From Dysidea avara (taxonomy: Eukaryota; Porifera; Demospongiae; Dictyoceratida; Dysideidae), in contig NC_089275.1 of assembly GCF_963678975.1 (NCBI RefSeq), positions 14,353,682 through 14,417,681 of the forward strand: a stretch of DNA of 64,000 nt, given 5' to 3'. The notes under the pieces are model-generated. The model was not told the origin of the DNA. It saw nothing but the letters and a program-made list of their open reading frames with translations, and made no database searches. Below, piece after piece: positions 8,641 to 62,964 of this stretch. Each line of letters opens with the position of its first letter. Within the stretch, counting starts at the first letter, position 1. Position numbers and translations under genes: made by a program.

Positions 8641-8774
8641 CAATACAAAAGCCTTCTGAGGGTTATTTTATGCTCGAGTCTGCTTTCTAAGGCTGGTTTT
8701 AGGTGACTGCTCTATTAGGATTTTCAAAAATTCCACTACGATCCTTATTAGATAAGATGTCTCAGTATTACCAT

Positions 8775-9369
8775 TAGTGTTGCACCGATATGCATTTTTT
8801 CACATTTACCGATACCGATTATTTGCCTATTCCTGTAACCGATATGCCGATATTTACCGATATTCTTCAATTCTTCAGAACAGGAGAGGAGGAGCAGAAA
8901 ACCACCTAGTGTATAAACTGTATTTGTAATATCAATGTAATTAATCGCGTGGGCGGCAGACTTTTACTATTTTTTTACAGTTTTGCAACTAACTCCTTTC
9001 ATGGAAAAGGAAGCCAAGTAGTTATAAAACAACTAAGACAGCTTATCAAACAGTGTTTTTAGTGGGACTCCAGACCCTTTGTGAAGAGTGATCAACTAAT
9101 TGCGTGGGCGGCCGATAAATATACACAGCCTACTATAGCCTTGCAACCATACTTGTGCAAACAAACAAGCCAAAACAGTTACAACCACTTACTGCTACAT
9201 TCACCACCTTCTTTCTTTACTTTCACCTGTTCATTGCCGTCATTAATGATTGATTGTGGGTTTCGGTTAATCGGCAAATTATTTCCGCTTCGTAGCCGAC
9301 ACCGATACTTGTAAAATTAGCTAATATCGGCTGTTACCGATAATTCAACCGATTATCGGTGCAACTCTA
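8775..9369. mobile_element. Non-autonomous hAT transposon with perfect 8-bp TSD
   Basis: Terminal inverted repeats TAGTGTTGCACCGATA and TATCGGTGCAACTCTA bound a 595-bp element. It is flanked by ATTACCAT at 8767-8774 and 9370-9377. An 8-bp duplication and TAG...CTA ends are hallmarks of hAT. The inside holds further CCGATA repeats and no transposase. Confidence 0.88.
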
Positions 9370-9377
9370 ATTACCAT

Positions 9378-10128
9378 GGCAATCCTTTCAAAACATATAA
9401 TAGCATCTTCCTATTATATTCAAGCTGAAGTAAAAATGACTTAATGCTTTTTTTTTTCAAAACTGAACTTTTGGAATTTTTTTTAAAGTTAAAGTTTTGA
9501 AAAGAAATTAGCTAAATGATTGTCAATCAACTTTGCTCACTCTAACAGCAAAAAGTGGAACATCATTCTGCCAGTATAATAGCTATATAGCTACACTGCA
9601 CATTACAAGGTGTTTCAGTACAAGCAGTTGATGGGTGAGAAAAATGAACATTTTGAGAAACTGAAAAGAAGTGCAACTCCACGGTAAATAGCAGGTGGTA
9701 ATACGAGAGCCGCCATGTAAATTTTAGCATAACACTCTGATATGCACCGTGTAGCTATCAGAATCACGTGACAGCTACTGTACTTCACCATAGATTATAC
9801 CCAGGAGTATATAATCTCATAGCGCTAGCTATGACTGTGACTCAAGTTCCGACTGAGCTGCTATAGAGCATCCGGTATTAAAGGCCGTTAAACTGTATCT
9901 CAGTTATCCCTGAAATCCACCTAGAAGCTTTTGTCACTGTATCCGTTATTTTCCTCGAAGGGTTCCCTCTCCTGCGTGCGGCGCCTGCTCTGCATTTGGC
10001 GTGACCGGTGGACCCCGTGAACTGATTGCTTTAAATAATGCACGTTTTCGAGAGCATTGCTTAGTACAACGTAAGTTGTTCGCATCTCTGTTGGCATGTT
10101 TTACTGACTTGTATATTCGCAGGCTCGA
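9378..10128. promoter_or_regulatory. Upstream region of the TRAF-type gene
   Basis: It contains a T-rich tract near 9450 and a CG-richer segment at about 9940-10080 just before the start codon. This is the likely former promoter and 5' UTR of the TRAF-type gene. No TATA box was identified. Confidence 0.35.
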
Positions 10129-12581
10129 ATGGCACTGAGTAAACCATCGATCAAAGAACAGGTTTCCTTTGTACTATCACCTTCAGAGGAATTTAATTGC
10201 CCGATTTGTTTAAGCATTCTATCTGAACCATATCTTACTGCTTGTTGTGGCAACCATTTCTGTGAGCCATGTGTTGTCTCGGTGAAGAAGAACAGTGGAA
10301 AGTGTCCCATATGCCGAACTACACCGTTAAATGGATTCATCAATAAACATTTTAGGAGAAAATTACACGACCTACAGGTTTCTGTATTGCGTGTATAAAG
10401 GAAAGGGCTGTGAGTGGATAGGGGATTATGGAAAGATTGAGAAGCACTTAGACCTAGAGAAAGAAAATGGTGAGTGTCAATTTGTTACGGTAAAATGCCC
10501 TCTGTCAATACATTAATTCCAAGAAAATCTATTACCAACCATGTTAATAAGATTTGCAAGTATCAGGGGCGGATCCAGGGGAGGGGCTTTGGGGGCTGAA
10601 GCCCCCCCCCCTTCATATTTAGGTTTTACTTGATCAATATGCTGAGTATTGTAATGAAATTTTGTCTTAGCATAATTATATGATCACTAATAATACAAAT
10701 ACTCATAAAACCACCTTATAAACATCTTTCCAAGGTATTATCAGTGGATTTATGCTAAAGTTTATGCAACAAGGACCCGGATCAGCATTGGAGGTGTACA
10801 AGATCGAGATACTCTAATAGAGCAGTCAGCTAACTACTCTAATAGAACATTCACTAGAAACATGTAGTTGGTTCTGTTATGGAATTTTTCCAAATCTGCC
10901 TGCACCTATACATACAATGAAGTGCATTGGTCTGTTTGAAGGGTTTCATTCATCTACTTGTGTAGTTAATATGTATGGCAATACTTAATTTGTGCTCTCA
11001 GATTCAATCTTGTATTGTTCAAATTTCAAAATTTTCCACTTTCGGCATTCTTATTCTAACATGCACCTATTCAGTGTTGTGCAATTGTGAGAGGGGTACA
11101 TCATGTACTTGGTTGTCTGTACCTACCCAAACTTTTCCATTAGCAAAATGCTTCAGAGAGCCACACCTATAATCTAAAGGCAGTATATAAAATATCTACA
11201 GGTGTGAATTTTATGTGGAAAAGTCTCCCAATTGCAGTATTTTAGCATCTATTTTTCAAAATTTTCCTGGGGGGGCATGCCCCCAGACCCCTCTAGTTCC
11301 AGCACGCTTCACATGCTGGGAAGTGTGCTTCACACACCTATACCCAAGAGATTAGTACCTTGAGTTAGCCCCCCCTTTTATAAATCCTAGATCCGCCCCT
11401 GAGTATCGTCAGTTTTCTTGCAAATTCTGTGGTTTCCTGTCAACCTATGAGGTAGTTACCACTCTGCATAATGATGACTGCTTGAAGTATCCAGTCCCCT
11501 GCCCTAATCGTTGCTCAAATCAACATATCCTCGTATTGAGCTTAAAGATCACATTGATGAATGTCCAGAGCAAGAAATACAGTGTACATTTAGTGAAATG
11601 GGCTGCAAAGAAAAGCTTAAGCGTCGAATGTTACAGCAACACTTGGTGGATGGTGTAATTTTGCATCAAACGGTGATGTGTGCAGTGTTAACTGAAAAAG
11701 TCAAGCTGTATGCCAATGACAAAACTGCCCTTGAGAAAAAGCTTTCTGCACAAGATGTTATAATCAAGAATCTACGAAAAGATAAAGAAGAACTTGAACA
11801 AAAGGTTGATCATCTCACAGAGGAGATAGATAACCTAAAGCCAAAAAAAGATTTTTGGCTTGAAAACCTAAAATTTATGGCATCTAAAATGCGAGTAACA
11901 AACTGGCCACTCTATTTATGTAAAATAGTTGAGGTAGCTACTATTGAGCCATTTGTACCTGTTGTCTTGAAAGTTCAATTACATATTACTAAAGAGCATA
12001 GGTTGAACAACAGTGGCCCTACGTATCACTATATATCAACGCTCTATAACTGTATGCCCTTTTATAGCCATTCCAAAGGCTACAAACTGCAGTTGTCTGC
12101 AAAAGTTGCCTGTCACTGTCCTACCTGTCCAAAAATGTGTTTTATTCATGGTTATAGACTAAACAATCTGAGCTTATCGGTTGAGGTGCATGTTATACAG
12201 GGTGAGCATGATGTAGACCTCAAATGGCCTTATAAAAAGATGATTAGAGTAACCCTTTTGAATAAAGAAACTGATGATGGTCACTGCACACTTATGCAAG
12301 AGTGCAAGTCAAATTGTGAAGGATTTGAAGTTTCACAAGGTAAAGCTAAACAACCTGAACAGCTTTTGTATATGCAGTTGGCAACAGCACTGTCAACACA
12401 TGGCATTTATCTGCCTCAAGATTTTGATGGTTCAAGCAACCATTCTGATGAGATACTTTTTCCTCTGAACTTAAAAGACGAATTTGTGAATTGTAGGCCA
12501 CACGTATCTGCTGAACAATATTCAAGCAGCAAATATATTGGAGAATGTCAAAAGGATTTTTATGTACAAGTCACCTTGTAA
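10129..12581 (+). pseudogene. TRAF-type gene (RING, zinc fingers, coiled coil, MATH), disrupted
   Basis: TRAF proteins are cytoplasmic E3 ligases or adaptors in receptor signalling. The start at 10129 gives a RING finger (CPIC...HFCEPC...CPIC, residues 24-65). TRAF-type zinc fingers follow, then a coiled coil (11680-11860) and a MATH-like fold with SHSKGYKLQLS and GEHDVDLKWP, ending at TAA 12579-12581. The reading frame is broken. There is a one-base shift near 10380, a TAA at 10514-10516, a second shift near 10520 and a third near 11521. An 838-bp transposon lies at 10564-11401. Removing that element and one AGTAT copy restores the local frame (ICKY then RQFSCKFCG). The shifts fall in short A or T runs, so sequencing error is possible, but the stop and insertion favour a decaying gene. 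There are no introns, unlike its neighbours. Confidence 0.82.
10564..11401. mobile_element. Non-autonomous CAGGGGCGGATC transposon inside TRAF coding sequence
   Basis: The ends CAGGGGCGGATCCAGG and CCTAGATCCGCCCCTG are inverted repeats. The flanks AGTAT (10559-10563 and 11402-11406) are a perfect 5-bp target duplication. Inside are two copies of the ATACTCTAATAGARCAGTC motif (10810, 10836) and a GGGGGCATGCCCCC palindrome. There is no transposase. Ends of this type occur in hAT-like MITEs. The 5-bp duplication is shorter than the usual hAT 8 bp. Confidence 0.85.
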
Positions 12582-14101: not shown

Positions 14102-14386
14102 TAGAATGGAGAGCATACAGTTACTGAAGATTGGCTATTATATTACATAGGAGACACTGCATGCATGCATGCATAATAACAGCTTCAGTATGAGATTAGC
14201 TACGTAGTTAAATCAGTAGCAAAAGCTTCAAGTTCAGTGTTTAGAAGCACTACTAAAAGTGACTTGCTAAGAGAAAACTCGTTCAAACCGTTCAAATTTC
14301 CCTCAAGGACTCACGTGATATTTTGCGTGATGTTCACGTGAAAATAAGAACCGGGGATAGTGTGAGGGATAGTGACAAAGTTGAGG

Positions 14387-14662: not shown

Positions 14663-14737
14663 AGTAGCTTCCTGGGATTATATGTATATGCTTTTCGGTA
14701 GGCCAGATCCTTGTAGCTGGCTTGTTCTAGCAGCTGT

Positions 14738-17841: not shown

Positions 17842-17886
17842 ATGGATACATTTTTTTCTGTTAGAGAACGGTCAAGTGTATCCAAG
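17842..17886 (+). CDS. Possible small first exon of RGS copy B
   Basis: Between acceptor-like ctgtttttttatag and donor gtacag, 45 nt encode MDTFFSVRERSSVSK and join the next exon in phase 0. If a transcript starts upstream, the ATG at 17842 could be the start codon. Length and isolation keep this tentative. Confidence 0.4.
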
Positions 17887-20800
17887 GTACAGTGCTGTAT
17901 CACAGTTTTGTAATATATATCTGGTGAATGTTGGTAAAATTTTATCTGTTATAGCTATTTGGGCACTTACGTAATATATGTAATATTTTGTGAATTTTGC
18001 CAATACCAGGAGCAAGAGTGTTCTAATGAATGGTTAGGTTGTCCCACTCTTGACTGTGCCAACCCATTATATAAAGAATTTGGGGGGAATGCTCATCTGT
18101 TCTCTGCTGATTATGATGGGCGTTGGACACTGCCAGATGTACTAGCAGATAGCACTGAACTTCAGTACTTTAAGGTAAATTACAGGTACATTATATTATT
18201 ACTATCATATGTTTTTTTACTGAACATCCAAAGTTTCTTGCCAGAATATACATGTAACTCACTTCAATGATTCAGTTACAATGAAGCTGCTGAATGAACA
18301 TAGATTGTATTTTCATCAGTGACTTTAATTATTGGGACACTCCTTTATATGGGTCTTGAAGATTTTCAGTGGTAGCACTACTACAGTAGAAGTCATGCTG
18401 GCAATATCTGCATACTAGTGGCTGGCTTTAGTTGATTATTCTGGTGTTACAGATTGTTATAAAATTTAGATGACGTTATTGAAATGTGCTCATTAGCAGA
18501 AATTTGTTCAAACTTGAACGCTCTATTAGAGAGTTTTATTATAGTAATTTTGTGGATTTCAGTTAATTGAAGGTAAACGATCATGTTACAGTAGCTTACT
18601 ATACCACGATCCATTAGAAGACTACAAAATGCACCATAAGTGGTAATAAATTCATTGGTGGTATGATTCACGTTAAGAAAATCCTCGGCGATAGGTATTT
18701 ACCACACATGACCACGGATGTCGCCGAAAGCCATATGAACACGCTTAGCATTTCTAAGGATTTAATTAAGCAGACATACCATAATGAACCACCACTCAAG
18801 GATCCACTGTATACTGAAGTTAGATCTACAACTATACTGGAGATGCAAGTTGAATTACGACAAAACTCCCTAATAGAGTAGTCACTTCATTTCTGCTAAT
18901 GTATATAAAGCTTGTTGATATTGCTGTGTGGATTCTTCAAGAAAATACATTTTAATTTGAAGGAATCCAGCAGCAAAAATAGTGAAACAAAGGATAGTAT
19001 TATAGCATAGCTATTATATGTGACAAAATTTGACCTACATACCACCATTTGTAAAACTAATTTAAAAGTAGGGATTTTCCACATAACTATGTTGTAATGA
19101 TCATCATCATTCATAATGACCACTGCTTTTTGTTGCTGGATTCCTTATTTTATTTAATCATTTTAAATGTACTGTTTTAAGGCTATGATACTACATGCAT
19201 GTGCGCCATGCTGTTGCCAAGTTAAGAGTTTGTAGTAGGTATTATTTGTAAGAGAAATTGTCTAACTAGAGTGTGGCTGTCAAACTTAGTACTACAGGTC
19301 AAATACCAATGTTCCACTCTGTTCTCCACAATGATACTAGGCTTCGTCATATGATAACTGCAGGACTTAAAGGTGCTGACCTGTGTTAAATATGCAAAGT
19401 CTTTGTATTCAAGAAAAAACAGCAAGGTGTTGATTCTTTACTTGTAACAGTGGGATATACTGACAGTAAGACATTCTTCTCCATACAAATATTATAAACT
19501 CTTAATTGGCATGGATGGCTGTTGCAATATGATGGTGACTGCTTTATTAAGAGTTTCACTGCTTATGTCGAGTCAGTTATGCAATAGATTAAGGGGTGTG
19601 GTTGCCATCAATTGTCTTGCAGCTAGATAGTTTAAAGGTACAGTCACAGAGGTCTGGTTATTTAAGGGCAGGGTTGATCCCCAAATGTAAGCAGTATATT
19701 GAAGCAAGATACTCTGGATCAACTACTGTACTATAGATTTGCACAAAGATACAGTGTCAAATTTTTCATGGAACTAGTGTTGAAATGAAATGTAACGTAT
19801 ATCAGCTACTGTAGTTATACCTGTACAAGTAGTTGCTACATTCATACCAAGTAGTGCAATGTTGTACCACTACCTTGTTTGTACACATTGGCTTAGTACC
19901 ATCATACATGTCATAATTATTATCTGCAAAATAGAAGGATTTAGTAGAGAAGGCAACAAAGAGGCATTTCTAAACAATGACGTGAAATTGCAACAGGAAA
20001 AAAAACTATCTCGCCAATACCATAGCTAGCACAATAAACTTGGGACATTCACATTTACATTCAAGCAGTTATGACTAAAAAATGCATTGAAGAAAGTGTA
20101 ACAGCCAATATTCCTAACACAAGTGTTGAAAAATGCAATTAAAAACCAAATAAACAGTAGTCCAGTTCAGTGACTGGGGATGCACTACAGTTTTATTTAG
20201 CCGATGGTGTTGTGACTGGTTTTGGCTAGTAGGCAGACTATAAAATTGGATTATCTATAGTGATTTTAAAATAGCCAATACTTAATCTTCTAGAGGCAGA
20301 TCCAGAGGGAGGCACAGGGGGCACATGTCCCCTCCCCCAACTCCTTCCTTCATCTCTTTCAAAAAAAACATTCCATACAAGATTAAGATACTCTAATAGA
20401 GCAGTCAATCACTCTAATAAAGCTGTCTTCATGAGGCAGTGTAGCTTAACTATGAAGCTATAATAAAAATCTTTACAATATATACATTTGGTAAAGGACA
20501 GCCGTTCAGCCATTATTGCTATGACCTTTTTTTTGCTCTTCAACTTTTCAGCGATGTGCCCCCCCTTCTCCAAACTCTGGATCTGCCCCTGCCTTCTGTA
20601 AGTGTTTTCTTGTTTTTATCGATTTATGTTAGATGCACTAAGACTCTTCTGTAATATACTTTTCATCATGTGTAATGAATATTTCTATAATGCTTTTTGT
20701 TGTTTTGGTAGATGACCTTTATCCCTGCTATATTAAACATTAAGTATACCATGCTGTATGATAGTAATACTTTTTTATACAGAATAATTTACCAATGATT

Positions 20801-26800: not shown

Positions 26801-29800
26801 ACTTATGTGTATATAGCTGCAGTGAACTAAGTAAGATCACTATAGCTGCTGGTAAGCATTGCGTCGTATTATCATCCATCATGATCAGTGCTTGTGCAAT
26901 AAATTGTCTTTATTATGAATTCAGTCAAAATTATGCATAGCTAGCTGTGTAGTAATTTATTAGGCACCCAGTTAATGCTTAAGTTTGAGCATAAGATGCC
27001 TGAAGTATTTACCACAGATATATTTTGTAAATAATATTATTTAAAAAAAAGATAAATATACTCTAATAGAACAGTCAGTGACCAGCTGTGTAGTAATTGT
27101 GAACTAATTAGGCACTTGCTAAGTATGAGCATAATCTAAAGCATTTACCACAGATATTGTAAAATTTTGTTAATAGTAAATGAATGCCACAGTAAACATA
27201 GATCTATACTCTAATAGAACAGTCTGTCTATTCTACACTGTAAATTCATACTTCCAAATTTACAGTGTGAACAGTGTCTGTAATGTGCATGCCTTTGTCA
27301 AACACAATGATAGGTGCACATGTTTGACTCTCCAAGATAATAATATTATTCCAAATATCAATCATCTAAATGTTACCATTTTAACAATTTTGTTGTTCCA
27401 CCAGTGAGACTATCATTATAACAAAAATGAGTGATATCCACCCCAAATACACCTTTGCTGTAAAAAAAAGGTGCGTCCAAGAAACTACAAGTACCTGTAG
27501 CTAATCCAATATAATTAAAGACAGCTCAGTTGTAGGGAAAGACTTCATGAAAGTACGGGTAAAAATAACTGGTAACTTAAAGAGCTGATATCTGGAGCGG
27601 CCAAGAATCAATCTTAATCCAACTACTTATACAATTTTTTTTAATCCGTGCAAAAACACCTAGCATTGGCTGTAAAAAAAGTGCACCCATGAAAGTAACT
27701 GGCAATTGAAATAGCTGATATCTGAAGCGGCCAAGAATGAATGCTGATATACAACTAATTGGAATTAACAAAAAGTTTAACATTGAACCTTTATCTTTCA
27801 GCTGTGTTCTAAATTCGCTCTTGCTGCATCATAAATTGATATATTTTAACTCTATAAGCTAATTGGCTGGTAATTTGGCCGCCTTTTTTTTGCTCTATAC
27901 ATTGAATATTAAAAAAAGCGGCCAAATTACCAGCCAATTAGAGTTAAAAGAAATCAATTTATGATGCAGCAAGAGCGAATGAAGAACACAGCTGAGAGAT
28001 AAAAGTTCAATGTTAAACTTTTTGTTAATTCCAATTAGTTGTATATCAGCATTCATTCTTGGCCACTTCAGATATCAGCTATTTCAATTGCCAGTTACTT
28101 TCATGGGTGCACTTTTTTTTACAGCCAATGCTAGGTGTTTTTGCACGGATTAAAAAAAAATTTGTATAAGTAGTTGGATTAAGATTGATTCTTGGCCGCT
28201 CCAGATATCAGCTCTTTAAGTTACCAGTTATTTTTACTTTCATGAAGTCTTTCCCTACAACTGAGCTGTTTTTAATTATATTGGATTACAGGTACTTGTA
28301 GTTTCTTGGACGCGCCTTTTTTTTTACAGCGAAGGTGTTTTTGGGGTGGATTAATTTTACTGTTCACTAATATATTCACTATTAAACTACTAGTCAAGAT
28401 ATGACGCCATTCAATGGCTATGGCTTGTGTTGGAGTAGTGTTTGGTGAAGTGAAGTGTTGAAGGTATCCAAAAAGTTAATCATTCCTTTTCACTAAAAAA
28501 AAGCTATTTTATTGTGAGTAGAGTCTATGGAAACCACAATTAAACCTCTGGCCTTCACTATACTAACACACTCACCACCATTATTACTACCACATGTAAT
28601 CTTATTTCCTGTGCAAAGGTGTTGTCTAAAAAGCAGTGCTTATTCAGAAGCTTATTAGTCTTCTAACGACAATCAGATCAGTATCATATCAGAGCTGGTA
28701 TTTGCTGTTTCAGTATTTGAAACTCATTCCAATTATCGTCATCATCATTAATGCAATACAAGCAAAGTTAGGGCATAAAGGCTGGAAATAGCATTAAGCA
28801 TGAGATGATATGAACATTACATATTGGGTAACAGCACCTCGTCACATTTGCACAAAATTCTAATAGAACAGTCATTGCAAAGTATAATTCTATGATACTA
28901 GATGTCAGACCAAATACAAATTTGCGACTCTACACTGCACCACTTCAATGAAATTATTTGTCTTCATAAAAGCAGTATTTTGGGGACCATACTTCTACCA
29001 CTGGCAGGACTGCCAAAAGACTTTAGGGGGCCGAGGACAAATTTAGAATTTGGGGCCTCTGTAATTAATATAGCTAGGTAAAACCTTTGCATGTGAAGCA
29101 TGCCAATCTAGAGGGGTCTAAGGGCAGTGTTGGGCTGCTATTTTTAAAAAGTAGTATATTACTTATTACTCGTTACTGCCACTGCAATTAAACATGTAGT
29201 TATTATATTAACAGTAACTAGTAATATGTTATTATTACATATGTGACCGGATTTGCGAAAAGGTACCTTTTTCACACACAAAATTTGACTCATTTTTGAA
29301 CTTTATAGCTTCATAACATTTTAATCATTTCATGTAATCATCTGAAATTTTGCATGAGTGTAGCTACAGTATCTGGCTGCGTTTTGATGTACAGAGCAAC
29401 TTAATCAGTATAAGAAGGAAACAGTTATGACATTTTGTTTGCTGGTATGTAAAATGTGTGGAAAAGGTACCTTTTCGCAAATCCGGTCACATATTACAAA
29501 ATGTATAAAGGTACTTCATTAGGTAATAACATTACAATAATGCGCTATAGTCAAGCAACACGTTAGCACTTCGTTAGGTAATAATATTACAGTAACGAGT
29601 AGTTATGCACTACTTTAGTAACGCATTACTTATGTAAACTAACAATCCGTTACATATTACTAGCATAAGAAATGTAGCGCGTTATATTACTTCGTCACTA
29701 CAATAGGTAATAATATTACATAACACATTACAAAAATAATGCGTTATGCCCAACACTGTCTGGGGGCATGCCCCCAGGAAGTTTTTGAAAATTAGACCAT

Positions 29801-32800
29801 CAAAGATTGAGTAATTTCAATAGTTTATCACAGTATAATCAGGGGAAGATCTAGGATATCCCAAGGGGGTGCTGAACTAAGGGCATTTTTATAATGGGGG
29901 GCTTAAGAGGATGATACAACTATAATAGTGCACACTCAGCATTTGGAGCATGCTTGGTATCTGGGGGCATGCCCTCACAGAAAAATTTTGCAAATTTAAC
30001 TTTCTGAAATTGAATTTGGCAATAATGTTGATTGAACCTCACAATGCTTATTGACTAAGCGTCACTTAAAGTAAATAATATCATTATATTATCTAGCAGT
30101 GGTACCAACTCCTGACCCCTTGAACTTCAACCTTGAACTCAAACCATACTGCAGTATTTATGCTGTGCCCTTTAATATAATATGAAAGCTAGTTATATAC
30201 TTATAGTTTAATGATGATTGTTCTATTAGAGTAGTTGACTTTAGGAGCTTTTTCTGAATCAGCAGTTTTACCACCTTTGATCCCCTTTTGTTGTTTCCTT
30301 GGAGAGATCAGCTGTTCTCTTCTCACTCGTTATTGCCCATGTATGCTGTAGATGCAACTGCACCTGTACTGTAGCTCTGTAGCTTCTACTGTCTTTCTAG
30401 CTAGCACATACAGACTGTAGTAAAATTTCAGAGGAGGATGCTTTAGTCCCCATGCACTACCATATCCACTCTTGGTATAATTAATGACTGTTGTATTAGG
30501 GTATCTCATTATTTTTATAGTAAACTTTCTGCCAGCATATCACTTAGGAAATTTTTAAACACCATACCATATGCCAGACTGATTTTAACAGTTTGTTAGA
30601 GTAGGTACTATAACTGAATATTTGCCTGACTGCTGTATTAGGGTGACTGTACTATTAGAGTATCTCAATCATGATGCACTGAAATTACACTCTATTATAA
30701 GCGCCTTATGCACCTGGAAATCTACTCATTACTTATTGAGTTTGCTAGCTAATACATGGTATCTCTTACTGACAGTGGCTTTAAATTCCTGTCTTTGAGT
30801 CTACAGGAAATATTTACACTGCTCTTTGTTCATTTTTAAATGTGTAGATAATCAAGGTATTAGTCCTGTTTCGCTTTAGGATACTTTACTCAAAGCTGAT
30901 TTTTGCTTAGGTTCCTAGGCTATAGTATGTTCACGTTGAGCTGAATCCTCATCAAAAACATATAATAACTCATGGATGCAATTACACACTATCTTGAAAT
31001 TTGGCTTCTTTTGTAGTACTGCTTGACCCGCTAAAATATTTCAATGTTTGACATAATATTTACGGCCAATCAAAACTTTCACAATACATTTCCTATGGGA
31101 AGCCATATAGACACAGTGTCCATTACAGCCCTTTCCCAAACTTGTAGTGGAGCCAAACTGTACGTGTCTGTTGTTGACGCCTTTGCTGTTACCAATAATC
31201 ATCTGGTTGGCTGAATGTTAACTCTGTTGACAAAAAATCCACTTTTAATTATTAGCTGTTTTTCAGGATCCAGCTCAATGTGAACATACTATAGTGGTGG
31301 TAAATATCTTGTACAGACTCTAGCTTCTGTGTTTGCTATCCAGTGCCTAACTGGTGAAGTTGATAATAAATAAAAATGTAGCTATTGGGCAGCTATGAGG
31401 CCCTCTTGGACAAAGTGGAACCCAGGAAAAAATGCTCCAGTTGTCCAAATCCTCCCCCCCCCCCCTAATTACTGGCCTTACCATATTGTTATTATTACCA
31501 TAGATTTATTGTTATTAGTGCTTTACAGTGACCAGCACTGAAGGTCTATAACAGGCTTCCTCCAATTTTGCTGGCAAGAGCTACATGATGTGAAATGACT
31601 TTGCTTGGTTTACTTTGTTGTAGTGCTCATTGAATGTTACCTTAATTCACGTGGCTTTAGACATCAAGAAAATTACTGCTTAACGTTGCCATATCAACTA
31701 AATTGGTTTATAATGTCAAGTTGTCAATTCACTTATTTAATGTATATCCACCATGACCACAGGAAATGGAAGCTGGTGGAATCACAGACATCATCCTGAC
31801 AAAGAAGATGAATGCTATTATCAACTGCTACTTTTTGTCCCCTGTTCTCCCACAACTGCAGATTAATGTTACTAAAGAAATAGCTTCAGGTGTCATCAAA
31901 AGTGCAAGAGTGTCAGTACAAACTTTTAAAGATGCTGAGGTTTGTTATAATGTACAGTACAGTATATGTTGGTCTTCGCTAAAGTCTACTTAGTACAGTA
32001 GAACCTCAATTATCCAGACCTCACTTATCCAGATCTCGGTTAACCAAACCATGGAAATGACTGCTTTATTAAGAGTTATTGCGACTGTTCTATTAGAGAA
32101 GTTGAATAATACTGATATTCTTACCATGCTAGTTTAAGATTATTTAACACAGTTTCAGGGATACGACTTATGGATCATCCCTGGCTCCAAGGAGTTAACA
32201 TAACTGAGGTACCACTGTAGTGACCAAAGACCTAATTTACATATACAATGTAATAATAATATTAATAAACACAGACCATGTAAACAATGCAACAAAGATA
32301 AATACTGCAGTGGAATTTATCTAAACTAGTCATGTTTGGATGACTTATTTTCTTGTTCAAATTAAGTTATTTATTACTTTTCAATAGTTTTGTTTTGTTG
32401 TTGTAATATAACTGAAGTTACTTTCGATCACATGTCATTGGCGGAGTGGAGAAATGGAATACGTTACATATACCAAGACTCACGGTAGTGAAGCATGCGG
32501 CCAAGAAACTACAAAGTGCATGCCTCAATTAAAACACCTGCTACTACTATGAGTTATTTATGTGTTGGGACAGTTTCATAATTTTAGCTCTGAATTATGC
32601 AATCATCCTCAATGGAAATGTACAGTACAGCAAGCACCGGAATTGTAATTACATCGTTTTCTTGTTGCAACTGCGAAAATAAGAGTAGGTTCACTTTATC
32701 GTGCTGATATCTCAGTTTGTGTTAGTGTTATCACCATAATCATAGAACATAACTGTCTTTTTGTGGATCAATACTGGCACAGGAGTTTTCTAGTACTGGA

Positions 32801-35800
32801 TTTCTTGTACAGTGGATTTTACTTACCAAGCGCCTAATCTAAACAATAGATTTTAAAGACACCGCATGGACATAATCCCTGCACTCATATAAACGTATTG
32901 TGAAAGTGTGAAGAATGTAAATTCGCTGGAAAAAAAAAATCACATTTGTGCCTGCAGTGCATATTAAACAAGCGTTACATTCACTTATATTCTAATCATA
33001 TTTGCTCTAGACTAAATGTGTTATTTGCTTGACATTTGTTGTTGAGTGTTGGAGAAGATAAACCAGATTTGCAGCACATGTGGCCTGTATTTGTGCAATT
33101 TCACACGCATGGACAGATGTAGGATAGATGCTATGAACCTGAAGTGCATGTATAAGACATATGTAGCATACACATGGCAAATTTCACTTACAAGCTACGT
33201 AGTTTAATTTGATTTGACTATTAATTTGATTTGAAAATAAAACATGAAAATAATTATACAACTCCAATAACAGTTTTCTACTTTTAGTTTAAATGAGTTT
33301 GTCAGTCACTAACTGAAAAGTTCTTAAGGTGTTGGTATTGGTATGTGGATTCTCCAACATAGCCCTGCTTCTTGTGCTATGACATCTATTTTGTTGTTAA
33401 GAGACTTCCACAACCTGTAATTTCAGCTTCTTTTTTCCGGTGGACGATTAGATGTCTTATCTCTGTCCGTGCATTAGCTGCCACCAGAAGTTTACCCGAT
33501 ACTTCATCGGTTGCTCCTAGTACTTCTTCATACGTTCATTTTGATTCTGCGCCAATAGTTGAAGAATTCTGTAGTGCTTTACACACTTTCTTTCTACAAA
33601 AATAATATCTGTAACACATTGTAATACAAGCCACAGTAATTCTTACAATGTGCCTTCTCTGTCTTCTACTAGAATTGCAGTGCAAGCTGACTGTTGTTAT
33701 GTTTTTCATTTTGATTTTGCGCCAATAGTTGAAGAATTCTTTAGTGCTTTACACACTTTCTTTCTACAAAAATAATATCTGTAACACATTGTAATACAAG
33801 CCACAGTAATTCTTACAATGTGTCTTCTCTTAGAATGGCAGCGCAAGCTGACTGTTGTCATCTTTCTCTCCTGGCATGGGTGGCCTTTCTGAAGTCACTG
33901 CTCCTATCAGAAAATGGATAACTGTACACACAGAACACACATTTTTGGAACACACGTTCAATAGTAATAGTTAATTCTGTCAATACTACTTCATTTGTCA
34001 TGTTATCAATAACTGCTTGTACGTTTTCTTGATTACCATCCAATGAAGTCTCTGGCAACATTATGGGAGTAAATTAAGTTTCTCAAGTAACATGTATTCA
34101 TACTTGAAACTGAAATACTCGTGTGTTTCTTCTACAATCTTATCATCATCCAATACGATATGTCATGGACAACTTCCTATGATCACTGAATGATTACTTT
34201 TAAGCAGAAAATGCAACTTACTATATATACACTATTAAAGTATCTTGGTTTGTGAACAGTCCTTGTCACATCTTTACCATAGTTAGAATAAACCTTTGGT
34301 CTATAGTCTGGATACTTCTTGTTGTACTAGATTCAACACAAGTTGGCCTTCTTGAGATGAAATATGAGCACTGAAATGTTATCACATAGCCCAGTAACTG
34401 AATTGGTTACATCGTTAACTTACGAGTCTTCTCTATGGTTGAGTTAATGGCTTTGTTATAGCTTGCCCCAGCGTTGTTCTAACCGATGGGCATCTGTCAC
34501 TAATAGAACATTACGGCCGCCCTGACGATGACAGTTTTTCTCAGCGGAGTTCCTCTGGAAGTGACAGTTTTTCTCAGCGGAGTGCCCCTGGAAGCATACT
34601 GGGAGTGACAGGGATTCTGGGTTTCTTCCATGATTTTCACACAGCACCTGTTTGTCACTCGCCCATGCTTTCCTGTGACATGCAGCACGTGAGCTCTTTT
34701 CTTCATGGAGTCCTAACACTCTAGCAAAAATTATGCCGAAACCATGAGGAATCATTTGCTGTTTGGGCTTAGATGATTAAGCTGCTAGCTATACATAGTA
34801 CCCTGGATCTAATGTATCAGTTCTGAATATCAGATATTCTGAGGGACTGTATGGATGCTAGCTGTGCTGTTTCAAGAGATACGATGGTATTTCCCAATGT
34901 GCAAACAAATAATCAAGTTGAAATTTGGTAGTTACCTACAACATGTTAACAGTGATATAAATTTATCTTTATTTGATTAAAAAACTTTTAGTACTTCATC
35001 AAAGATTTTACTAGAGCAAGATACCTTTCCTCCAAGCAACTTACCAATATTTTATCTCTATATACAGTACCATACAGAGATTTGTGCAATGCAGTATTAT
35101 TTGTTAAACCTGTACCACTGTATACTCACTACATGGATTTAGCAGTAGCTAATAAAGTTTCTTGCCTTAAAACTTTTTACTGCAAGTAAATCATCAAAAT
35201 TAATCCATTCATTGGTGGTTTGGAGAGACAGCGTCATGGTAGGAGGTATACATTCAACATGCATTGAAGCGTATATTGGATTGGAAATGATGGCCGTATA
35301 TTGATGTGGCCTGTTCTGTATGTTATAATATCAGAATCTGCTGATAGAAAATGAATACAAGGAAATTTGTATGACAAAAGTACAATGATTTGAAAATCCA
35401 CTGCCTCTATACCAGCTCAGCTCAGGCCAACTTATTTTGGTATGCTACACTTAAAAAGCCATTTGGCTAGCATCACTTCTACTAGTAATCAAATTATCAA
35501 AATCAAGCGTATTTCACTAAACACTGCTGTCCTTGCTGTGTCTGTCAGTAAAAAAGTTATTTTATATGCATGACAACTCAACATATGTTTGGAATAGCTG
35601 ATTTATACTTAATACCATAGGCGGTGGAAACGGGGGGGGGGGGGGCTAGGGGGCTGAAGGTCTGCTGAGGGGCTACCCCCCCTCAGAATGATATCACACC
35701 GAAATTATCCTTCTTGAGTGGGGCTGAAAACCGTGATAAAGATCAAGATACTCTAATAGAGCAGTCGCTCTAATAAAGCAATGAGTATGTAGCGAGCTAT

Positions 35801-38800: not shown

Positions 38801-40101
38801 AAACTTACTTCAGTTCTTCGACCTTTTTCAATAGTCAGCATAGAGAAAAAAGGTGACCAAAATATCAGTCAAATAGAGTTACAAAGAATTAATTTAGGAT
38901 GTAGAAAGGGAGAATGTATAGGACACAAATGAATGGTTAAGATTCAATGTTACAAATCCATTAATAATAATGTAATTAGTTGTAGCAATCAACATAAATT
39001 TTATTCTTGGCCGCTTCAGGTATCAGCTGTTTTGGTTGCCAGTTAGTTTATTTACCTGTTCTACAGCCAAGGTGTTCTTGCATGGATTTGGTAAAACTTT
39101 GATAATCATAGTTAGTTGTAGTAAGCTTGATTCTTGGCCGTTCCAGATATCAGCTCTTTCAGTTACCAGTTGATTTCATGGAGTCTTTTTCTACAGCTGA
39201 GTTGTTATTTATGTGGGGTTACAGTTACTTGTAGTTTCTTGGATGCACCTTTCTTTTACAGTAAAGGTGTTTTGGGGGATACTAGTTACTTCAACTGACT
39301 TGATTTGAAAAGTAATATATATATATATAAACTGCTAGCTAAAAGTGTTGGTGTTATAGTGTGATGGATGTACAAACGTTACTATACTGTGTGATAATTT
39401 TTCTCATTTTGGAATTTATATTCACCTATTTGAGAGGTAGTCTTTTATACAGGTGATCACTAGGATGCATTCCACTGTAGTTTCTTTTTTATGGTATGCA
39501 TTGATGGATCGTAGTGTAGTTTTCTACAAATATGGCACTATTATAAGCTTAAGTGTTTATACATACTGCTACAATAGGCTGCTGTATACAAAGATGTGAT
39601 GAAACTCTGGATACAATTTCAAGAATTTTGTTCTGGCTACAATGAAAATATATTGCCATTTGATAAATTACGAAAGCATTGTGACAGGCGTAGAGATAAT
39701 GTTTTAAGTGAGCAGCAGTGTCTTACAGTCAATCGAAAACCTATTTCAAGGTGAGCAGATTTTGCTGTACCTATATGCTATTTTAAAAATGTGACCCAGT
39801 CTGACAAAACCAGCTTTGCCATAACCTAACTTGTTGATGATAAAAATATGAAACTTGCACTGCTGCAAGTGTGGTCCAGTTGTAAGTTAATTGAATGAAG
39901 TTACATACTATGAATAATGTTTATGGATTTGGCAAGGGTAAGACTGGTTTTGTCAGACTAGGTCACAAATTAAGCAGTTTTTCATGCAGATTGCAACATT
40001 CTAAGCACAAATTATTTTACAAGAACAAAATCACAAGAGAGAATAAGAAAACAACTCTTCAGTTTAGACTTTCTCAACCATACAGTGTACATGTTGAATG
40101 A
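17842..40101 (+). CDS. RGS-domain protein, RGS22-like, copy B (transposon-expanded paralogue)
   Basis: Exons 18010-18174, 20906-21088, 21268-21465, 21693-21863, 31763-31939, 39578-39750 and 39990-40101 join in frame to 392 residues ending at TGA. A possible extra 45-nt exon (17842-17886, MDTFFSVRERSSVSK) adds 15. Each exon pairs with one of copy A, with the same phases and near-equal lengths, and the product has the same two RGS bundles (AIQDLRCWEEIEKF; NNVLFWIEVQRCK). Expected role: G-alpha binding in signalling, by family only. All frames are open and every splice site is GT-AG, so the gene looks intact. It differs in size, since introns of 9.9 and 7.6 kb are filled with hAT, pogo-like and palindromic elements. 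The true start is uncertain, and longer 5' parts may be missing or lost after the duplication. Confidence 0.83.
18010..18174 (+). CDS. RGS copy B, exon a
   Basis: Exon of 165 nt, acceptor ccaataccag, donor gtaaat. It ends RWTLPDVLADSTELQYFK, matching the end of exon a in copy A. The N-terminal half is diverged and Cys-rich (CPTLDC). Confidence 0.82.
18175..20290. other. Intron of RGS copy B, first part
   Basis: A 2.7-kb intron runs to 20905. It holds solitary copies of the TCTAATAGAG-type motif near 18520 and 18866, and a CTTTATTAAGAG variant near 19545. A short open frame at 18663-18881 has no recognised domain. Confidence 0.45.
20291..20591. mobile_element. CAGGGGCGGATC-family element, 301 bp, copy 2
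   Basis: The ends TAGAGGCAGATCCAGAG and CTCTGGATCTGCCCCTG are inverted repeats, flanked by TCTTC and CCTTC (4 of 5 match). It carries the pair ACTCTAATAGAGCAGTC and ACTCTAATAAAGCTGTC at 20391-20431. Closest in structure to 60904-61224. Confidence 0.8.
20906..21088 (+). CDS. RGS copy B, exon b
   Basis: Exon of 183 nt, acceptor tatgttttag, donor gtattg. It encodes AIQDLRCWEEIEKFHSS and the IEKRFLHKNY region, paired with copy A 1796-1987. It opens with ATG, but exon a joins it in frame, so I treat that Met as internal. Confidence 0.87.
21268..21465 (+). CDS. RGS copy B, exon c
   Basis: Exon of 198 nt, acceptor tttttaaag, donor gtaaga. It begins VISVGGGMYGEK and carries YARDRLEKKWLPEFLET, the closing helix of the first RGS bundle. 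Confidence 0.87.
21693..21863 (+). CDS. RGS copy B, exon d
   Basis: Exon of 171 nt, acceptor cattttgtag, donor gtaaac. It encodes FMEYLTITQEPGQYDVNNV and LFWIEVQRCK, the start of the second RGS bundle. Confidence 0.87.
21887..22370. repeat. Dispersed repeat with AAGACTCACGGTAGTG end, copy 1
   Basis: It starts AAGACTCACGGTAGTGAGG, then GCGGCCAAGAAACTA. A diverged copy at 32471-32950 matches along about 480 bp. The same terminal motif, inverted, ends the element at 50960-51785. I infer an old DNA transposon family with that end. Confidence 0.65.
22553..22850. repeat. Dispersed repeat, copy 2 (CCTTCGGGCATATAT)
   Basis: Second copy of the block at 15395-15680. It includes a G-run at about 22796-22810 followed by TGGG repeats, absent from copy 1, which suggests slippage at that site. 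Confidence 0.65.
22851..24578. other. Intron of RGS copy B, no feature recognised
   Basis: About 1.7 kb of AT-rich sequence. No exon, terminal repeat or tandem repeat that I can support. Confidence 0.4.
24587..24924. mobile_element. Non-autonomous hAT element, 338 bp
   Basis: The ends TAGTGCTGAAACGAGTA and TAATCGTTTCAGCACTA are inverted repeats. The flanks ATAATAAC and ATGATAAC agree at 7 of 8 positions, as expected for an older hAT insertion. Inside, TATTCGAATAG-type repeats are frequent. No transposase. Confidence 0.82.
24933..26944. other. Intron of RGS copy B, no feature recognised
   Basis: About 2 kb with no supported gene or repeat. A minus-strand frame at 26685-26882 has no domain. 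Confidence 0.4.
26945..27225. repeat. Tandem duplication, period about 147 bp, each unit with the motif
   Basis: GCTGTGTAGTAAT...TTACCACAGATAT recurs about 147 bp apart (near 26946 and 27093). Each unit ends with ATACTCTAATAGAACAGTC (27060 and 27207). The motif was duplicated together with its flanks here. Confidence 0.65.
27418..28351. mobile_element. Giant palindromic MITE, arms of about 450 bp
   Basis: The left arm (27436-27880) and the right arm (27905-28351) are inverted copies separated by about 25 bp, so intron RNA would fold into a very long hairpin. The left end ACAAAAATGAGTGATATCC matches the family end seen at 14085 and 46535. Arms contain two direct sub-blocks, each with CTGTAAAAAAA and GCGGCCAAGAAT. 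A single arm of a relative survives at 38850-39285. Non-coding. Confidence 0.85.
28352..29124. other. Intron of RGS copy B with one solitary motif copy
   Basis: TTCTAATAGAACAGTCATT lies near 28859. A degraded GGGGCC-rich transposon fragment lies at about 29000-29120. No exon. Confidence 0.4.
29125..29758. mobile_element. hAT-like element CAGTGTTGGGC...GCCCAACACTG, split by a nested MITE
   Basis: The ends CAGTGTTGGGC and GCCCAACACTG bound a segment rich in GTTACT / AGTAAT and TAATATTA strings. The flanks TCTAAGGG and TCTGGGGG match at 6 of 8. A second member with a perfect 8-bp TSD is at 61761-62279. A foreign element sits inside at 29240-29493. Confidence 0.78.
29240..29493. mobile_element. 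Nested MITE, TATGTGACCGGATTTGCG family, 5-bp TSD
   Basis: Perfect ends TATGTGACCGGATTTGCG and CGCAAATCCGGTCACATA extend through AAAAGGTACC. The flanks are TTACA at 29235-29239 and 29494-29498. This is the cleanest member of the family also seen at 2001, 41487 and 55678, and its nested position shows it moved after the host hAT. Confidence 0.85.
29840..30000. mobile_element. Fragment of a CAGGGG-type element
   Basis: It begins CAGGGGAAGATCTAGGATATC and includes GGGGGCATGCCCTC followed by AAAATTTTGC, as in the element at 10564-11401. No right end was found, so it is truncated. Confidence 0.5.
30200..30670. repeat. Cluster of inverted copies of the dispersed motif
   Basis: The reverse form (GACTGYTSTATTAGGGT or TGTTCTATTAGAGTA) occurs near 30218, 30484, 30634 and 30650. 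The last two are adjacent. No transposon ends surround this cluster, so the motif can stand outside the known families. Confidence 0.55.
30920..31294. mobile_element. Inverted-repeat MITE with CTATAGTATGTTCACGTTGA ends
   Basis: The left end CTATAGTATGTTCACGTTGA and the right end GTGAACATACTATAG pair, and AGCTGAATCCTCA / CAGGATCCAGCT extend the arms. About 375 bp, non-coding. The ends recall those of 4905-5227 and 43480-43816. Confidence 0.75.
31515..31560 (-). mobile_element. SINE-like 3' end fragment
   Basis: The reverse complement of the 3' end of the 260-bp repeat at 7884-8640 (TGCTTTACAGTGACCAGCAC) is preceded by an AT-rich tail. A similar fragment is at about 58527-58550. This supports dispersal by retroposition. 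Confidence 0.5.
31763..31939 (+). CDS. RGS copy B, exon e
   Basis: Exon of 177 nt, acceptor gaccacag, donor gtttgt, the same length as copy A 3033-3209. The central 31 residues around NCYFLSPVLPQ are identical between copies, while the flanking residues differ. It lies isolated between introns of 9.9 and 7.6 kb. Confidence 0.87.
31996..32217. mobile_element. Pogo/Tigger-like MITE, 222 bp
   Basis: The ends CAGTAGAACCTCAATTATCC and GAGGTACCACTG are inverted and flanked by TA on both sides, the typical target and end type of pogo/Tigger elements. It sits just after an exon donor. It carries the pair CTTTATTAAGAG and GACTGTTCTATTAGAG near 32060-32095. The sister copy is at 62745-62964. Confidence 0.85.
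32471..32950. repeat. Dispersed repeat with AAGACTCACGGTAGTG end, copy 2
   Basis: Diverged copy of 21887-22370, starting AAGACTCACGGTAGTGAAG and GCGGCCAAGAAACTA. Both lie in introns of RGS copy B. Confidence 0.65.
32951..33536. other. Intron of RGS copy B, no feature recognised
   Basis: AT-rich sequence without a supported exon or repeat. Confidence 0.4.
33537..33863. repeat. Tandem duplication, period 170 bp
   Basis: The block starting GCCAATAGTTGAAGAATTC at 33551 recurs at 33721 and is almost identical through AATTCTTACAATGTG. The high identity suggests a recent duplication. Flanking frames do not keep a shared long ORF. Confidence 0.75.
34456..34755. other. CG-richer segment with 33-bp duplication and open frames
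   Basis: GACAGTTTTTCTCAGCGGAG occurs twice, 33 bp apart, near 34530-34590. Both strands have open frames here, a plus-strand one that is Ser-rich and a minus-strand one of 99 codons, but no domain is recognised. It may be a fragment of a captured or decayed coding sequence. Confidence 0.25.
34756..35607. other. Intron of RGS copy B, no feature recognised
   Basis: AT-rich sequence with no supported exon, tandem repeat or transposon end. Confidence 0.4.
35616..35956. mobile_element. hAT-like MITE CATAGGCGGTGG...CGGCCCCTG, 8-bp TSD
   Basis: A 341-bp element is flanked by perfect CTTAATAC copies (35608-35615 and 35957-35964). The ends resemble CAKRGGCGGTGG. Inside is the motif pair ACTCTAATAGAGCAGTC / CTCTAATAAAGC at 35750-35780. 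A G-run follows the left end. A relative with an 8-bp TSD lies at 57582-57853. Confidence 0.82.
35965..37607. other. Intron of RGS copy B with fragments only
   Basis: Around 36716-36780 lies a GGGCATGCCCTCAGACTCC fragment typical of the CAGGGG elements. A (TG)n/(CG)n tract lies at about 37119-37150. No exon was found. Confidence 0.45.
37608..38384. mobile_element. hAT element TAGGCCTG...CAGGCCTA with perfect 8-bp TSD
   Basis: The ends TAGGCCTGCGCCTATTATGC and GCATATTAGGCTCAGGCCTA bound 777 bp, with CTCTAAAA at 37600-37607 and 38385-38392. The inside is rich in GAATAAT strings and holds two copies of the ATACTCTAATAGARC motif (37859, 37882), though its ends are unrelated to the CAGGGG families. 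No transposase. Confidence 0.88.
38850..39285. mobile_element. Degraded relative of the giant palindromic MITE
   Basis: From about 39000 the sequence follows the right arm of 27418-28351 (CTTGGCCGCTTCAGG, CTACAGCCAAGGTGTTC, then CTTTTACAGTAAAGGTG). The opposite arm is barely recognisable, so this copy has lost its palindrome. Confidence 0.65.
39578..39750 (+). CDS. RGS copy B, exon f
   Basis: Exon of 173 nt, acceptor ctacaatag, donor gtgagc, ending in phase 2 as in copy A. It encodes AVYKDVMKLWIQFQEF and ILPFDKLRKH, matching ILPFEKLQTE of copy A. Confidence 0.86.
39990..40101 (+). CDS. RGS copy B, terminal exon g
   Basis: Terminal exon of 112 nt after acceptor ttcatgcag. It completes the split Arg codon and ends in FRLSQPYSVHVE and TGA at 40099-40101. 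It is shorter than copy A's last exon. Confidence 0.83.
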
Positions 40102-41486
40102 AACATTTAACAGTCAGTGTTAAAGATAAAACGATGACAAGTTATACAAACATATTATGTATATTCATGCTAACCCAGTCATGTATTTATTTATTTCATT
40201 AATTAATTAAAATATATAACTACACCATAGGCTTTTCAGAGTATCTCCCCATCCTGTACTTGCCAAGTCTAAATTTTGAAAAGTTGTTTGTATAGGAACT
40301 GAGACTAGGTAATCAATTTTCTACCAGTCTATACCTACGTCCCTTAATTGTGATTGAGAGTTCTTGTCTTAGTTGAACAGTTATATATCTATTAAAATTG
40401 ACAAGGTAGTAATACAGGGGTGGATCCAGGAGGGTTTCTCAGGTTTCTGGAAACCGGTAAATGGATTTGCAATGTTAGATTGAGGTACTCTAATAGGGTA
40501 GTCAATCACTCTAATAAAGAACTCACAGTATTCAGAGAAGCAGTGTAGTGAGCTATGTAGCTATAAATAAGGATTTTCATGTACTTTATCAGTGATAATA
40601 ATAATTATATAGTTAGCTGAGGGCAGTTGTTCTCAGCAGGTAGTTACTTTTACTGATCTTCAACTGAAGTCTATAGCTAGCAATGCTCCTGATTAGAAAC
40701 CAGTCATGTAAAATCCTTGAGCCACTTATGTAATGATCAATATCATATGCTTCTATCGAGGAGATCTTCACCTGAAGTGCAAATGTAATCCCAGTCTTAG
40801 CCACAGTACAAATGTAGTTTATTGCTACAGAAAATTATTGGCTGGAGTGGGGATTAAACTTGCATGTCATGATGTATATAATTATGTTGCCAGTTTTTAA
40901 ATGATGAGAATGCTTTAAGGAGGAGTCATGTAATGTAGTATTTGTATTATTGCCTTGGGTAAATTACTGCTGTTGGACGCAACGTGTGAGTACAGTACCA
41001 TAAGCTCATGTAATTTAGTACACTGTGTCATAAACAGTACATTTCCTGAAGTTATGAATCGTAAAAGTTGGTATATTGGATTTGTGTGGAAGACCCCTTT
41101 TTGCAAATCTGGTAACATTCATTAATGTGGCTATATCATTAGAGTAGTTGGCCACTCCATTAAAGCACATCACTCTTTTGTTAACAAACAAACATGGACC
41201 GGTGAAAAGTAGTAAACCATGATCCCTTCATTTCTGCCACCAATATTTGCAGCTTCTTCAAAACTGGATCGGAATGGTGGGTGCTCAGCAGCATCATATA
41301 TAATTGTCATAAATGCAGTCAATATGCTACCATCAGAAATGTTGATGCACAATTGGATATTGTTTGTATACTAAGAATAAAAACAAACTATACATATATA
41401 GATGAAATCAATGTACTGTAATACGTATAATATCTGACGCATTATACGTAATTACTAATTCAGTGCCCACCACTAACAGTAGTCAA
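40102..41486. other. Spacer after RGS copy B with transposon fragments
   Basis: A CAGGGGTGGATCCAGG end starts at 40417 and carries ACTCTAATAGGGTAGTC and ACTCTAATAAAG at about 40486-40520, but no right end was found. A degraded piece of the TATGTGACC MITE family lies at about 41040-41118. No gene. Confidence 0.5.
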
Positions 41487-42184: not shown

Positions 42185-42330
42185 CATCCGGAGGCAGCTC
42201 AAGGGAGTTTCTGAGGTTTCCATAAACTGGTCAAGCAAGATCGAGATACTTTTAATAGAGCAGTCATCCTAAAAGAGCACTCATTATAATATAACAGTCA
42301 AGCTGTGATGCCATGGTTTTATCTTGACTT
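42185..42330. mobile_element. Degraded CAGGGG-type element fragment
   Basis: It contains AGATCGAGATACTTTTAATAG and AGCAGTC, followed by a second diverged unit, in the same order as in intact family members. Ends are not clear. Confidence 0.4.
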
Positions 42331-44923: not shown

Positions 44924-61596
<16,673 letters not shown>

Positions 61597-61760
61597 TAAT
61601 AATTACGCCTTGTAAAATACTGTATATACAATGCAAAGAAAATTAGAAATTTTAAGTTCAACTAGGGATAATGTAAATAAAAGGTAGTGAACAAGGGAGG
61701 TTGCCTATAGCTACAGCTAAAGACATACATACTAGTGGACATTACATACATACTAGTGGA
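61597..61760. promoter_or_regulatory. 5' flank of the collagen gene
   Basis: Presumed 5' UTR and promoter side of the minus-strand collagen gene. ACATACTAGTGGAC occurs twice at 61725-61760. No core promoter motif was identified. Confidence 0.3.
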
Positions 61761-62279
61761 CAGTGTTGGGAGTAACGCGCTACTTATGTAACGCGCTACG
61801 TAATATTATTACTTTTGTGGTAACAAAGTAATATAACGAAATACGCTATAAAATCAGGTAATATAACTCAAGTAACTTTACTTGCAAATGTAACGCGTTA
61901 CCTAAGTAATATAGTTACTGTAACGAATCTAATATTATGTAATATTATTACTAAAAGTAACGAAGTTACTAATCTCGTTAGTAACCACTGAGTAACGCCT
62001 GCCACAATGAAGTAATGAAGCCTACTAAGTGAGGCTTATTCACCAGCTACTTACTTATATCAAGACTTGCACATTGTCCAACAATGCAATCGTGTCATGT
62101 GATAAGGTGGTAGTTTTACACGTGACAGCTTAAGGCTATGGACACAAAGTAATATAATATGTAATATTATTACAGTTACTTTATTTTATGGGTAATATGT
62201 AACTGTAACTAAATAGTTCAGCTGCAAGTAATATGTAATATGTAACTAGTTACTTTTAAAAGTAACTTGCCCAACACTG
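61761..62279. mobile_element. hAT-like element CAGTGTTGGGAG...CCCAACACTG, perfect 8-bp TSD
   Basis: 519 bp between CTAGTGGA copies at 61753-61760 and 62280-62287. The inside is dominated by GTAACGCGYTAC and TAATATTA strings. Same family as 29125-29758. It lies directly upstream of the collagen start and may affect its promoter. Confidence 0.88.
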
Positions 62280-62410
62280 CTAGTGGACATTAAAGTCCTT
62301 ACTTCAGTCTATAGATTGAATGCATTATGTATATTATATCCATTAACGTATCTTTAGGTGTTCTCCCTTGTTTCACTACTTTTTATTTCTATAATTTCCC
62401 AAATCGAATT

Positions 62411-62640
62411 GTGACCAGATTAGTTAAAAGGGTCTTTCACACTCATCTAGTTTACCGTTACAAACATTTGATGATTCATAATATCAGCTTGGAAAAAGCT
62501 ACTGACTTGAAATTTGGTCAGCAGTGCACATTTAACATACGTAGCCTAATGGATGAAGAAACATTTGGATTGAACACATGCTCAAACTATCAATTACTGA
62601 AAGTACCAAGGGTTGTTTCCAGTTATGTTCAACCTGTTAC
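62411..62640. mobile_element. Degraded MITE of the TATGTGACC family
   Basis: A GTGACCAGATTAGTTAAAAG left end with AGGGTCTTTCACACTCATC resembles the arms at 41487-41712. The inner parts match only in pieces and the right end is lost. Confidence 0.4.
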
Positions 62641-62744
62641 ACAGTGTTACAAAGTATGAGAAGCACCTCTGCAATCAATCTAGTCACCATAGAGAGAAAT
62701 GGAACATAAAGGAGGACAAAGGTAAGTCCATGATGTGAACAGTA

Positions 62745-62964
62745 CAGTGAAACCTCAGTTATCCAGATCCCACTTATGCGGATTCTTGGTTAACTGAACT
62801 ATGGAAATGACTGCTCTATTAGAGTAGCGACTGTTCTATTAGGGTAGTTGAATGACTGGTATTAAAAAAAATGGTTATTTATAACACAGTTCCAGAGACA
62901 TGGACTTTTCAGACTTATGGACCACCCCTGGTTACAAGGGGTTTGGATAACTAAGGTTCCACTG
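62745..62964. mobile_element. Pogo/Tigger-like MITE, 220 bp, copy 2
   Basis: The ends CAGTGAAACCTCAGTTATCC and AAGGTTCCACTG are flanked by TA on both sides. Sister of 31996-32217. It holds GACTGCTCTATTAGAGTAG and GACTGTTCTATTAGGGTAG at 62810-62850. Confidence 0.85.

Follow-up and report, generated by a model that had tools for sequence, protein, structure and literature searches.

Transposon families are usually taken to rely on their own transposase, and miniature inverted-repeat transposable elements (MITEs) of the hAT and pogo/Tc1-mariner types are known as short sequences with terminal inverted repeats (TIRs) and target site duplications (TSDs) of 8 bp or TA. The elements analyzed here resemble such MITEs, and they carry an internal block common to several types, which is outside either definition. 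The block was studied from a 64,000-nucleotide stretch of the sponge Dysidea avara (contig NC_089275.1, positions 14,353,682 to 14,417,681; hereafter the window), where its core motif, ATACTCTAATAGARCAGTC, is dispersed. The core sequence, on either strand, was not found in the literature searched, and searches by topic returned two precedents only. One is the m1m2 motif pair of Caenorhabditis, which occurs in thousands of copies in the CERP2 and CELE2 MITEs, is bound by the transposase-related THAP protein HIM-17, as shown by chromatin immunoprecipitation and reporters, and has been co-opted as germline promoters (PMC9757741). The other is TERM, a 13-bp motif common to ZAM, accord and Tirant of Drosophila, to which RpL22 binds in vitro (PMC8872304).

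The Dysidea block resembles m1m2 in that short motifs are paired within MITEs at a spacing that varies by element type, and the paired motif is fixed inside MITE families. The HIM-17 system combines two distinct motifs within a pair of related MITEs (PMC9757741), whereas in Dysidea a single motif is repeated, exceeds 100,000 copies and resides in hAT-like, pogo-like and unclassified carriers. TERM is likewise a short repeated motif in several elements, to which a host protein binds in vitro, but it has another sequence, lies in the 5′ untranslated regions of three retrotransposons and numbers several hundred genomic copies (PMC8872304). We consider the Dysidea block to be a putative protein-binding element, present in multiple copies and retained at the transposon level in many non-autonomous families, with a probability of roughly 0.45.

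The first-pass annotation of the window had counted about 22 motif loci in both orientations, which agrees with our count of 21 matches at ≤3 mismatches on both strands (19 at ≤2 mismatches and 8 exact), compared with a mean of 0.06 and a maximum of 2 in 100 shuffles at ≤3 mismatches. Fifteen of its 16 example coordinates were within 6 bp of a unit, and the remaining one, 45793, was a weaker match with 4 mismatches in 16. When the genome (550,814,596 bases, 108 contigs) was searched at ≤2 mismatches, as that annotation had proposed, 113,424 matches were obtained (56,541 and 56,883 on the two strands), against 9 (4 + 5) for the reversed pattern. Chance origin is ruled out by the shuffles of the window and the reversed control of the genome. 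The copy density of the window is ordinary, as 19 copies at ≤2 mismatches compare with 13.2 expected for the genome (P = 0.08). In a blind sample of 20 blindly placed 10-kb genome stretches, 38 copies were found at ≤3 mismatches (190 per Mb; 10, 14, 4 and 10 copies with 0, 1, 2 and 3 mismatches), and 15 of the 20 stretches held at least one. A k-mer survey of the window and the blind sample ranked sub-words of the motif at the top by the count of different flanking contexts. The occurrence of the motif in prokaryote and viral collections, in 2 viral contigs and 52 genome stretches, was of the order of chance by arithmetic.

Alignment around the motif placed it as the core of a block of approximately 29 bp, AAGATCGAKATACTCTAATAGARCAGTCA, with a 17-bp repeating unit, ACTCTAATAGARCAGTC. 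The 11-bp sequence AAGATCGAKAT was present upstream of the unit at ≥8 of 11 positions in 27 of the 41 clusters scored in the window and the blind sample, and a control stretch 40 bp upstream reached this level in none of the 41; the remaining 14 clusters were core-only. Information per column, determined from 16 hand-picked representatives with different flanks, dropped sharply at −11 and past +17; because units were picked at ≤3 mismatches, the core columns are partly selected and the outer columns are not.

The unit is frequently doubled in direct orientation. Within 70 bp, a direct partner was found for 37 of 57 units and an inverted partner for none (≤2 mismatches, window and blind sample), while the reversed control gave a partner for 2 of 57. 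The nearest-partner distances were 17 (10 units), 20, 21 (12 units), 25, 27, 31, 32, 37 and 64 bp. The earlier description of a direct pair about 21 bp apart thus holds for part of the copies, with ACTCTAATAAAGCAGTC or a near form at +21 (20411, 61011); units spaced differently are frequent as well. Exact direct pairs with gaps of 0 to 12 bp amounted to 6,493 matches genome-wide (control 0). Among 100 of these pairs as listed, no fewer than 17 spacers, with lengths of 0, 3, 4, 8, 10 or 11 bp, recurred exactly, several of these being variants within one family.

Exact inverted pairs were found at 28 sites genome-wide (56 rows, since each site appears on both strands; control 0). An identical 8-nt gap was present in 22 of the 28, with middle letters that mostly differ. 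The eight sites fetched (L125-L132) were all within AGCATAATAGG-type sequence; in five of them the whole block was inverted with the arm match stopping near the block ends, and three of the eight contained three units. The arms of these eight are perfect and the central few letters vary by locus. Such pairs could fold as hairpins, and the length of the block suits a small RNA, so that a small-RNA target or source common to the elements was considered. We regard this as very improbable, since inverted pairs are rare, the window contains no Rfam match at gathering scores, and one would not expect a silencing target to be retained and duplicated. An RNA gene was rejected as well, as the window has neither such a match nor a tRNA.

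The carriers were characterized by their ends and target duplications. The different ends and target lengths reported in the first-pass annotation were recovered in seven window elements whose ends and duplications were checked, namely CAGGGGCGG with 5 bp (two elements), CATAGGCGGTGG with 8 bp (two), TAGGCCTG with 8 bp (one) and pogo-like with TA (two). An automatic end finder applied to 112 clusters called 8-bp duplications in 27, 5-bp in 8 and TA in 8, the TA calls being mostly doubtful; a chimeric-flank control gave 7 calls. TAGG, CAGG or CATAGG ends were present in 21 of the 27 8-bp calls, although three of these repeat another row. The loci L063/L108 and L115/L116 are not independent, because both members of each pair carry one and the same element, TSD included, and L124 is one element counted twice. 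The recurrence of L063/L108 and L115/L116 at two places of contig C1 is a segmental or assembly duplication. An 8-bp TSD together with TIRs, as in hAT-type MITEs, was found for the elements at 37608-38384 and 35616-35956 and for L085, L087, L089, L093, L094, L110 and L124. Carriers with CAGGGGCGGATCC ends have 5-bp duplications instead (AGTAT, ATCAT, GTATT, CAACA) and were therefore not filed as typical hAT. The elements at 31996-32217 and 62745-62964 have a TA duplication and CAGTGGAACCTCAGTTATCC-type ends, and we take such TA-duplicating carriers to be pogo-like.

Within these families the block has a fixed position. The motif was located ≤350 bp inside 16 of 21 TIR-like ends in the window and the blind sample, counting the ends of one element singly (pogo 5 of 7, CAGGGGCGG 7 of 9, CATAGG 2 of 2, CAGGGYCGCCC 2 of 3). 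A search for a pogo-like end with the motif 30-60 bp further on gave 248 exact genome matches, some elements being matched twice, and none in the control; the end-to-motif distance was mostly one fixed value among the matches listed. In every family examined the block is built in at a fixed position, with one to four copies, overwhelmingly in direct orientation, at a spacing specific to the family, and the motif reached more than 100,000 places through transposition of its carriers. That it is an internal segment of a single repeat family is ruled out by the differing flanks, positions, spacings and ends, as the annotation had argued: the pogo-like, TAGG-type hAT-like, CAGGG-type and large unclassified carriers each have positions and spacings of their own.

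The sharp ends of the block and its many contexts could suggest a tiny self-moving sequence that inserts into other elements, which was one of the options raised earlier. However, repeats of ≥5 bp flanked the block in 12 of 112 clusters compared with 10.6 for shuffled flanks, and repeats of ≥4 bp in 41 of 112 compared with 31.5 (standard deviation 4.4). A self-inserting unit with target duplications is unsupported at this near-shuffled level, and the position is fixed within families, including the 248 pogo-like matches, so that we give this explanation hardly any credence. The transposon-free state also reported for some copies may be only apparent; the flanks of those at 30216 and 8705 are repeated elsewhere, and those at 27060, 27208 and 28857 had no ends by the finder, which misses known elements.

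hAT elements typically have subterminal repeats to which the transposase binds, and the first unit of the present motif lies approximately 65-120 bp from one end in several types. As most of the ends found are hAT-like with an 8-bp TSD, the block might be the recognition site of one transposase in cross-mobilized hAT-like families, and the pogo-like and unclassified carriers would have captured it by accident. This is unlikely in our view, because the motif lies 152-250 bp from the end in other families, is near one end only, and also has a fixed position in the 248 pogo-like matches and in the 5.6-kb carrier, whose ends differ. Its presence in pogo-like as well as several hAT-like carriers would favor a shared factor, of the host or resident, over a single transposase.

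Some of the carriers are related to each other. The CAGGGGCGG, CATAGGCGGTGG and CAGGGYCGCCC types have in common an interior of approximately 230 bp downstream of the motif (AGAGAAGCAGTGTAGCAAGCTA ... TTTTTTGGTCTTCAAC), and they differ in ends and duplication lengths, indicating that interiors were exchanged between elements. Comparison of these sequences shows the motif-bearing interior to have been swapped among the three TIR types. By eye and by BLAST of the flanks, the TAGG-type, CAGGGCCGG, CATAGGCAG, pogo-like and 5.6-kb carriers share solely the block or its core with the interior-sharing types. The carrier families had been called unrelated; this fails for CAGGGGCGG and CATAGGCGGTGG, because they share the whole interior. 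The suggestion of a fragment swapped between elements is likewise confirmed for the three types with the common interior only.

The main and simplest rival is built on exchange, which, judging from the aligned interiors, surely occurred for these three types: the block would be functionless, a relic of an interior shuffled passively by recombination and template switching, and its apparent conservation would reflect inheritance and youth. The common 230-bp interior supports this, unit decay is nearly equal to flank decay, and the mismatch spectrum of the blind sample would fit moderately young neutral copies. For comparison, same-spacer copy pairs were fetched for ten spacers, with families picked by hand. 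Most pairs matched over 150-700 bp with element-like ends, and the AAGATCCAAAT pair matched across nearly the whole stretch, so that the ends of its element are not visible. The ACTT pair (L087, L088), both in TAGG-type elements with an 8-bp TSD, was alike over only about 50 bp, which is exactly the block and its second unit. This pair, the sharp information drop at both ends of the block, the doubling that arose with many spacings, and the occurrence of the same block as inverted duplicates speak against passive swapping, since a passive relic has no need to retain identical ends or to be doubled repeatedly. We consider it possible rather than probable.

A protein-binding role, which the first-pass annotation had listed among its options as a host-factor site, is favored because a sharp-edged 29-bp block that is repeatedly doubled and kept amid element turnover looks like a binding site from which its carriers benefit. 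The block would be bound by a single protein with sequence specificity, belonging to the host or to a resident transposon. Elements equipped with at least two good sites would amplify better, so that the block would be retained or regained as the remaining element sequence turned over. The protein would act on transposition, or on transcription in cells where transposition counts, and would not act on the fate of each old copy, because old copies decay.

Several observations weigh against this protein-binding reading. In 69 of the 112 clusters no element ends were called by the finder, which also failed to call the pogo-like elements already known and the two at 35616 and 37608. The unit was higher in similarity than its flanks in 26 of 31 within-family pairs, only modestly, and not in the other 5, in a comparison biased by the choice of units for similarity; with the unit only slightly better kept than the flanks, there is no sign of selection on, or upkeep of, single motif copies. 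The conserved thing is the block between families, not the individual copies. In addition, hAT-like carriers dominate the ends found, and inheritance and swapping among them could explain much.

A bolder form of the protein-binding reading, which we hold to be less likely than not, is that one DNA-binding protein might be a common amplification or activation factor for different transposon classes that converged, by swapping and doubling, on the same docking block. If true, a large share of this genome's mobile DNA would be governed by a single host factor. The block, if kept and doubled in elements with different ends, duplications and probably transposases, would point to a shared trans-factor, giving one handle on many families, and such a factor would mean a reservoir of more than 100,000 ready binding sites for the rewiring of gene control. 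Were the exchange passive, the block would still exemplify modular evolution among MITEs on a large scale.

The unclassified carrier is a repeat element of approximately 5.6 kb at 46213-51790 (− strand), with related copies in L068 and L070. It carries two units with spacing 17 and the full block at 50958-50993 (−), and this pair adjoins its 31-bp array, a long minisatellite at 46700-50650 inside the dispersed element. The second unit resembles the array unit, as only 0, 1 and 3 of 3000 shuffles reached the score in three copies, so that the array may have grown from that unit within this element. The whole motif has no clear similarity to the 31-bp consensus (408, 50 and 399 of 2000 shuffles reached the score). 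For this reason, and because motif copies are dispersed, an origin of the motif from a satellite or tandem array was rejected. Copies of the element start with TCAAGACAC and stop near a short hairpin with ATTAG. The hallmarks of Helitron/HINE are a TC start, a 3′ hairpin and a CTRR end, without a target duplication.

The other units and carriers of the window were as follows. The unit at 8705-8723 (−) has 3 mismatches in the 19-mer and the same flank as L062. Two units with spacing 25 (10809-10852, +) are carried by an 838-bp element with CAGGGGCGGATCC ends and TSD AGTAT at 10564-11401 (+), and two with spacing 21 (20388-20427, +) by a CAGGGGCGG-type element whose right end is near 20591. Single units at 27058-27076 (+) and 28855-28873 (+) had no element ends by the finder, and that at 27206-27224 (+) lies in a tandem duplicate, now diverged, of the stretch before it. 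On the − strand, the unit at 30216-30234 is in a repeat also present in L065 and L079, followed by a unit with 2 mismatches (30486-30504) and two units with spacing 17 (30628-30663). The pogo-like element at 31996-32217 (222 bp, +) carries units at 32059-32101 (−), including that at 32083-32101 (−). The element at 35616-35956 (341 bp, +), with a CATAGGCGGTGG left end and TSD CTTAATAC, has a unit at 35748-35766 (+) and a weaker one at +17, and the TAGGCCTG-ended element at 37608-38384 (777 bp, +; TSD CTCTAAAA) has two units with spacing 21 at 37859-37898 (+). Diverged units were found at 40485-40524 (+; two, spacing 21, left end CAGGGGTGGATCC at 40415) and at 42247-42299 (+; 17-bp steps, AGATCGAGA upstream). 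The 272-bp element at 57582-57853 (+), with a CATAGGTGGTGG end and TSD TGGCACCT/TGGCACTT (one mismatch), contains the unit at 57625-57643 (+), and the 321-bp element at 60904-61224 (+), with CAGTGGCGGATCC ends and TSD ATCAT, contains two units with spacing 21 at 60988-61027 (+). The 220-bp pogo-like element at 62745-62964 (+) holds two units with spacing 20 at 62809-62847 (−); it adjoins an 8-bp tandem array with at least 93 overlapping register copies (62959-64000), which reaches the window end.

Other features of the window include a 260-bp sequence in three tandem copies, containing a tRNA-like stretch (GTTCGATTCC), at 7909-8738, possibly a short interspersed nuclear element, the third copy being 67% alike. 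A long nested inverted repeat at 27559-28237 has 181-nt arms that are 96% complementary and is related to the region at approximately 39000-39280. An open reading frame (ORF) with a TRAF-type zinc finger and a MATH domain is located at 11508-12581, and collagen ORFs are present at 45141-45527 and 56878-57318.

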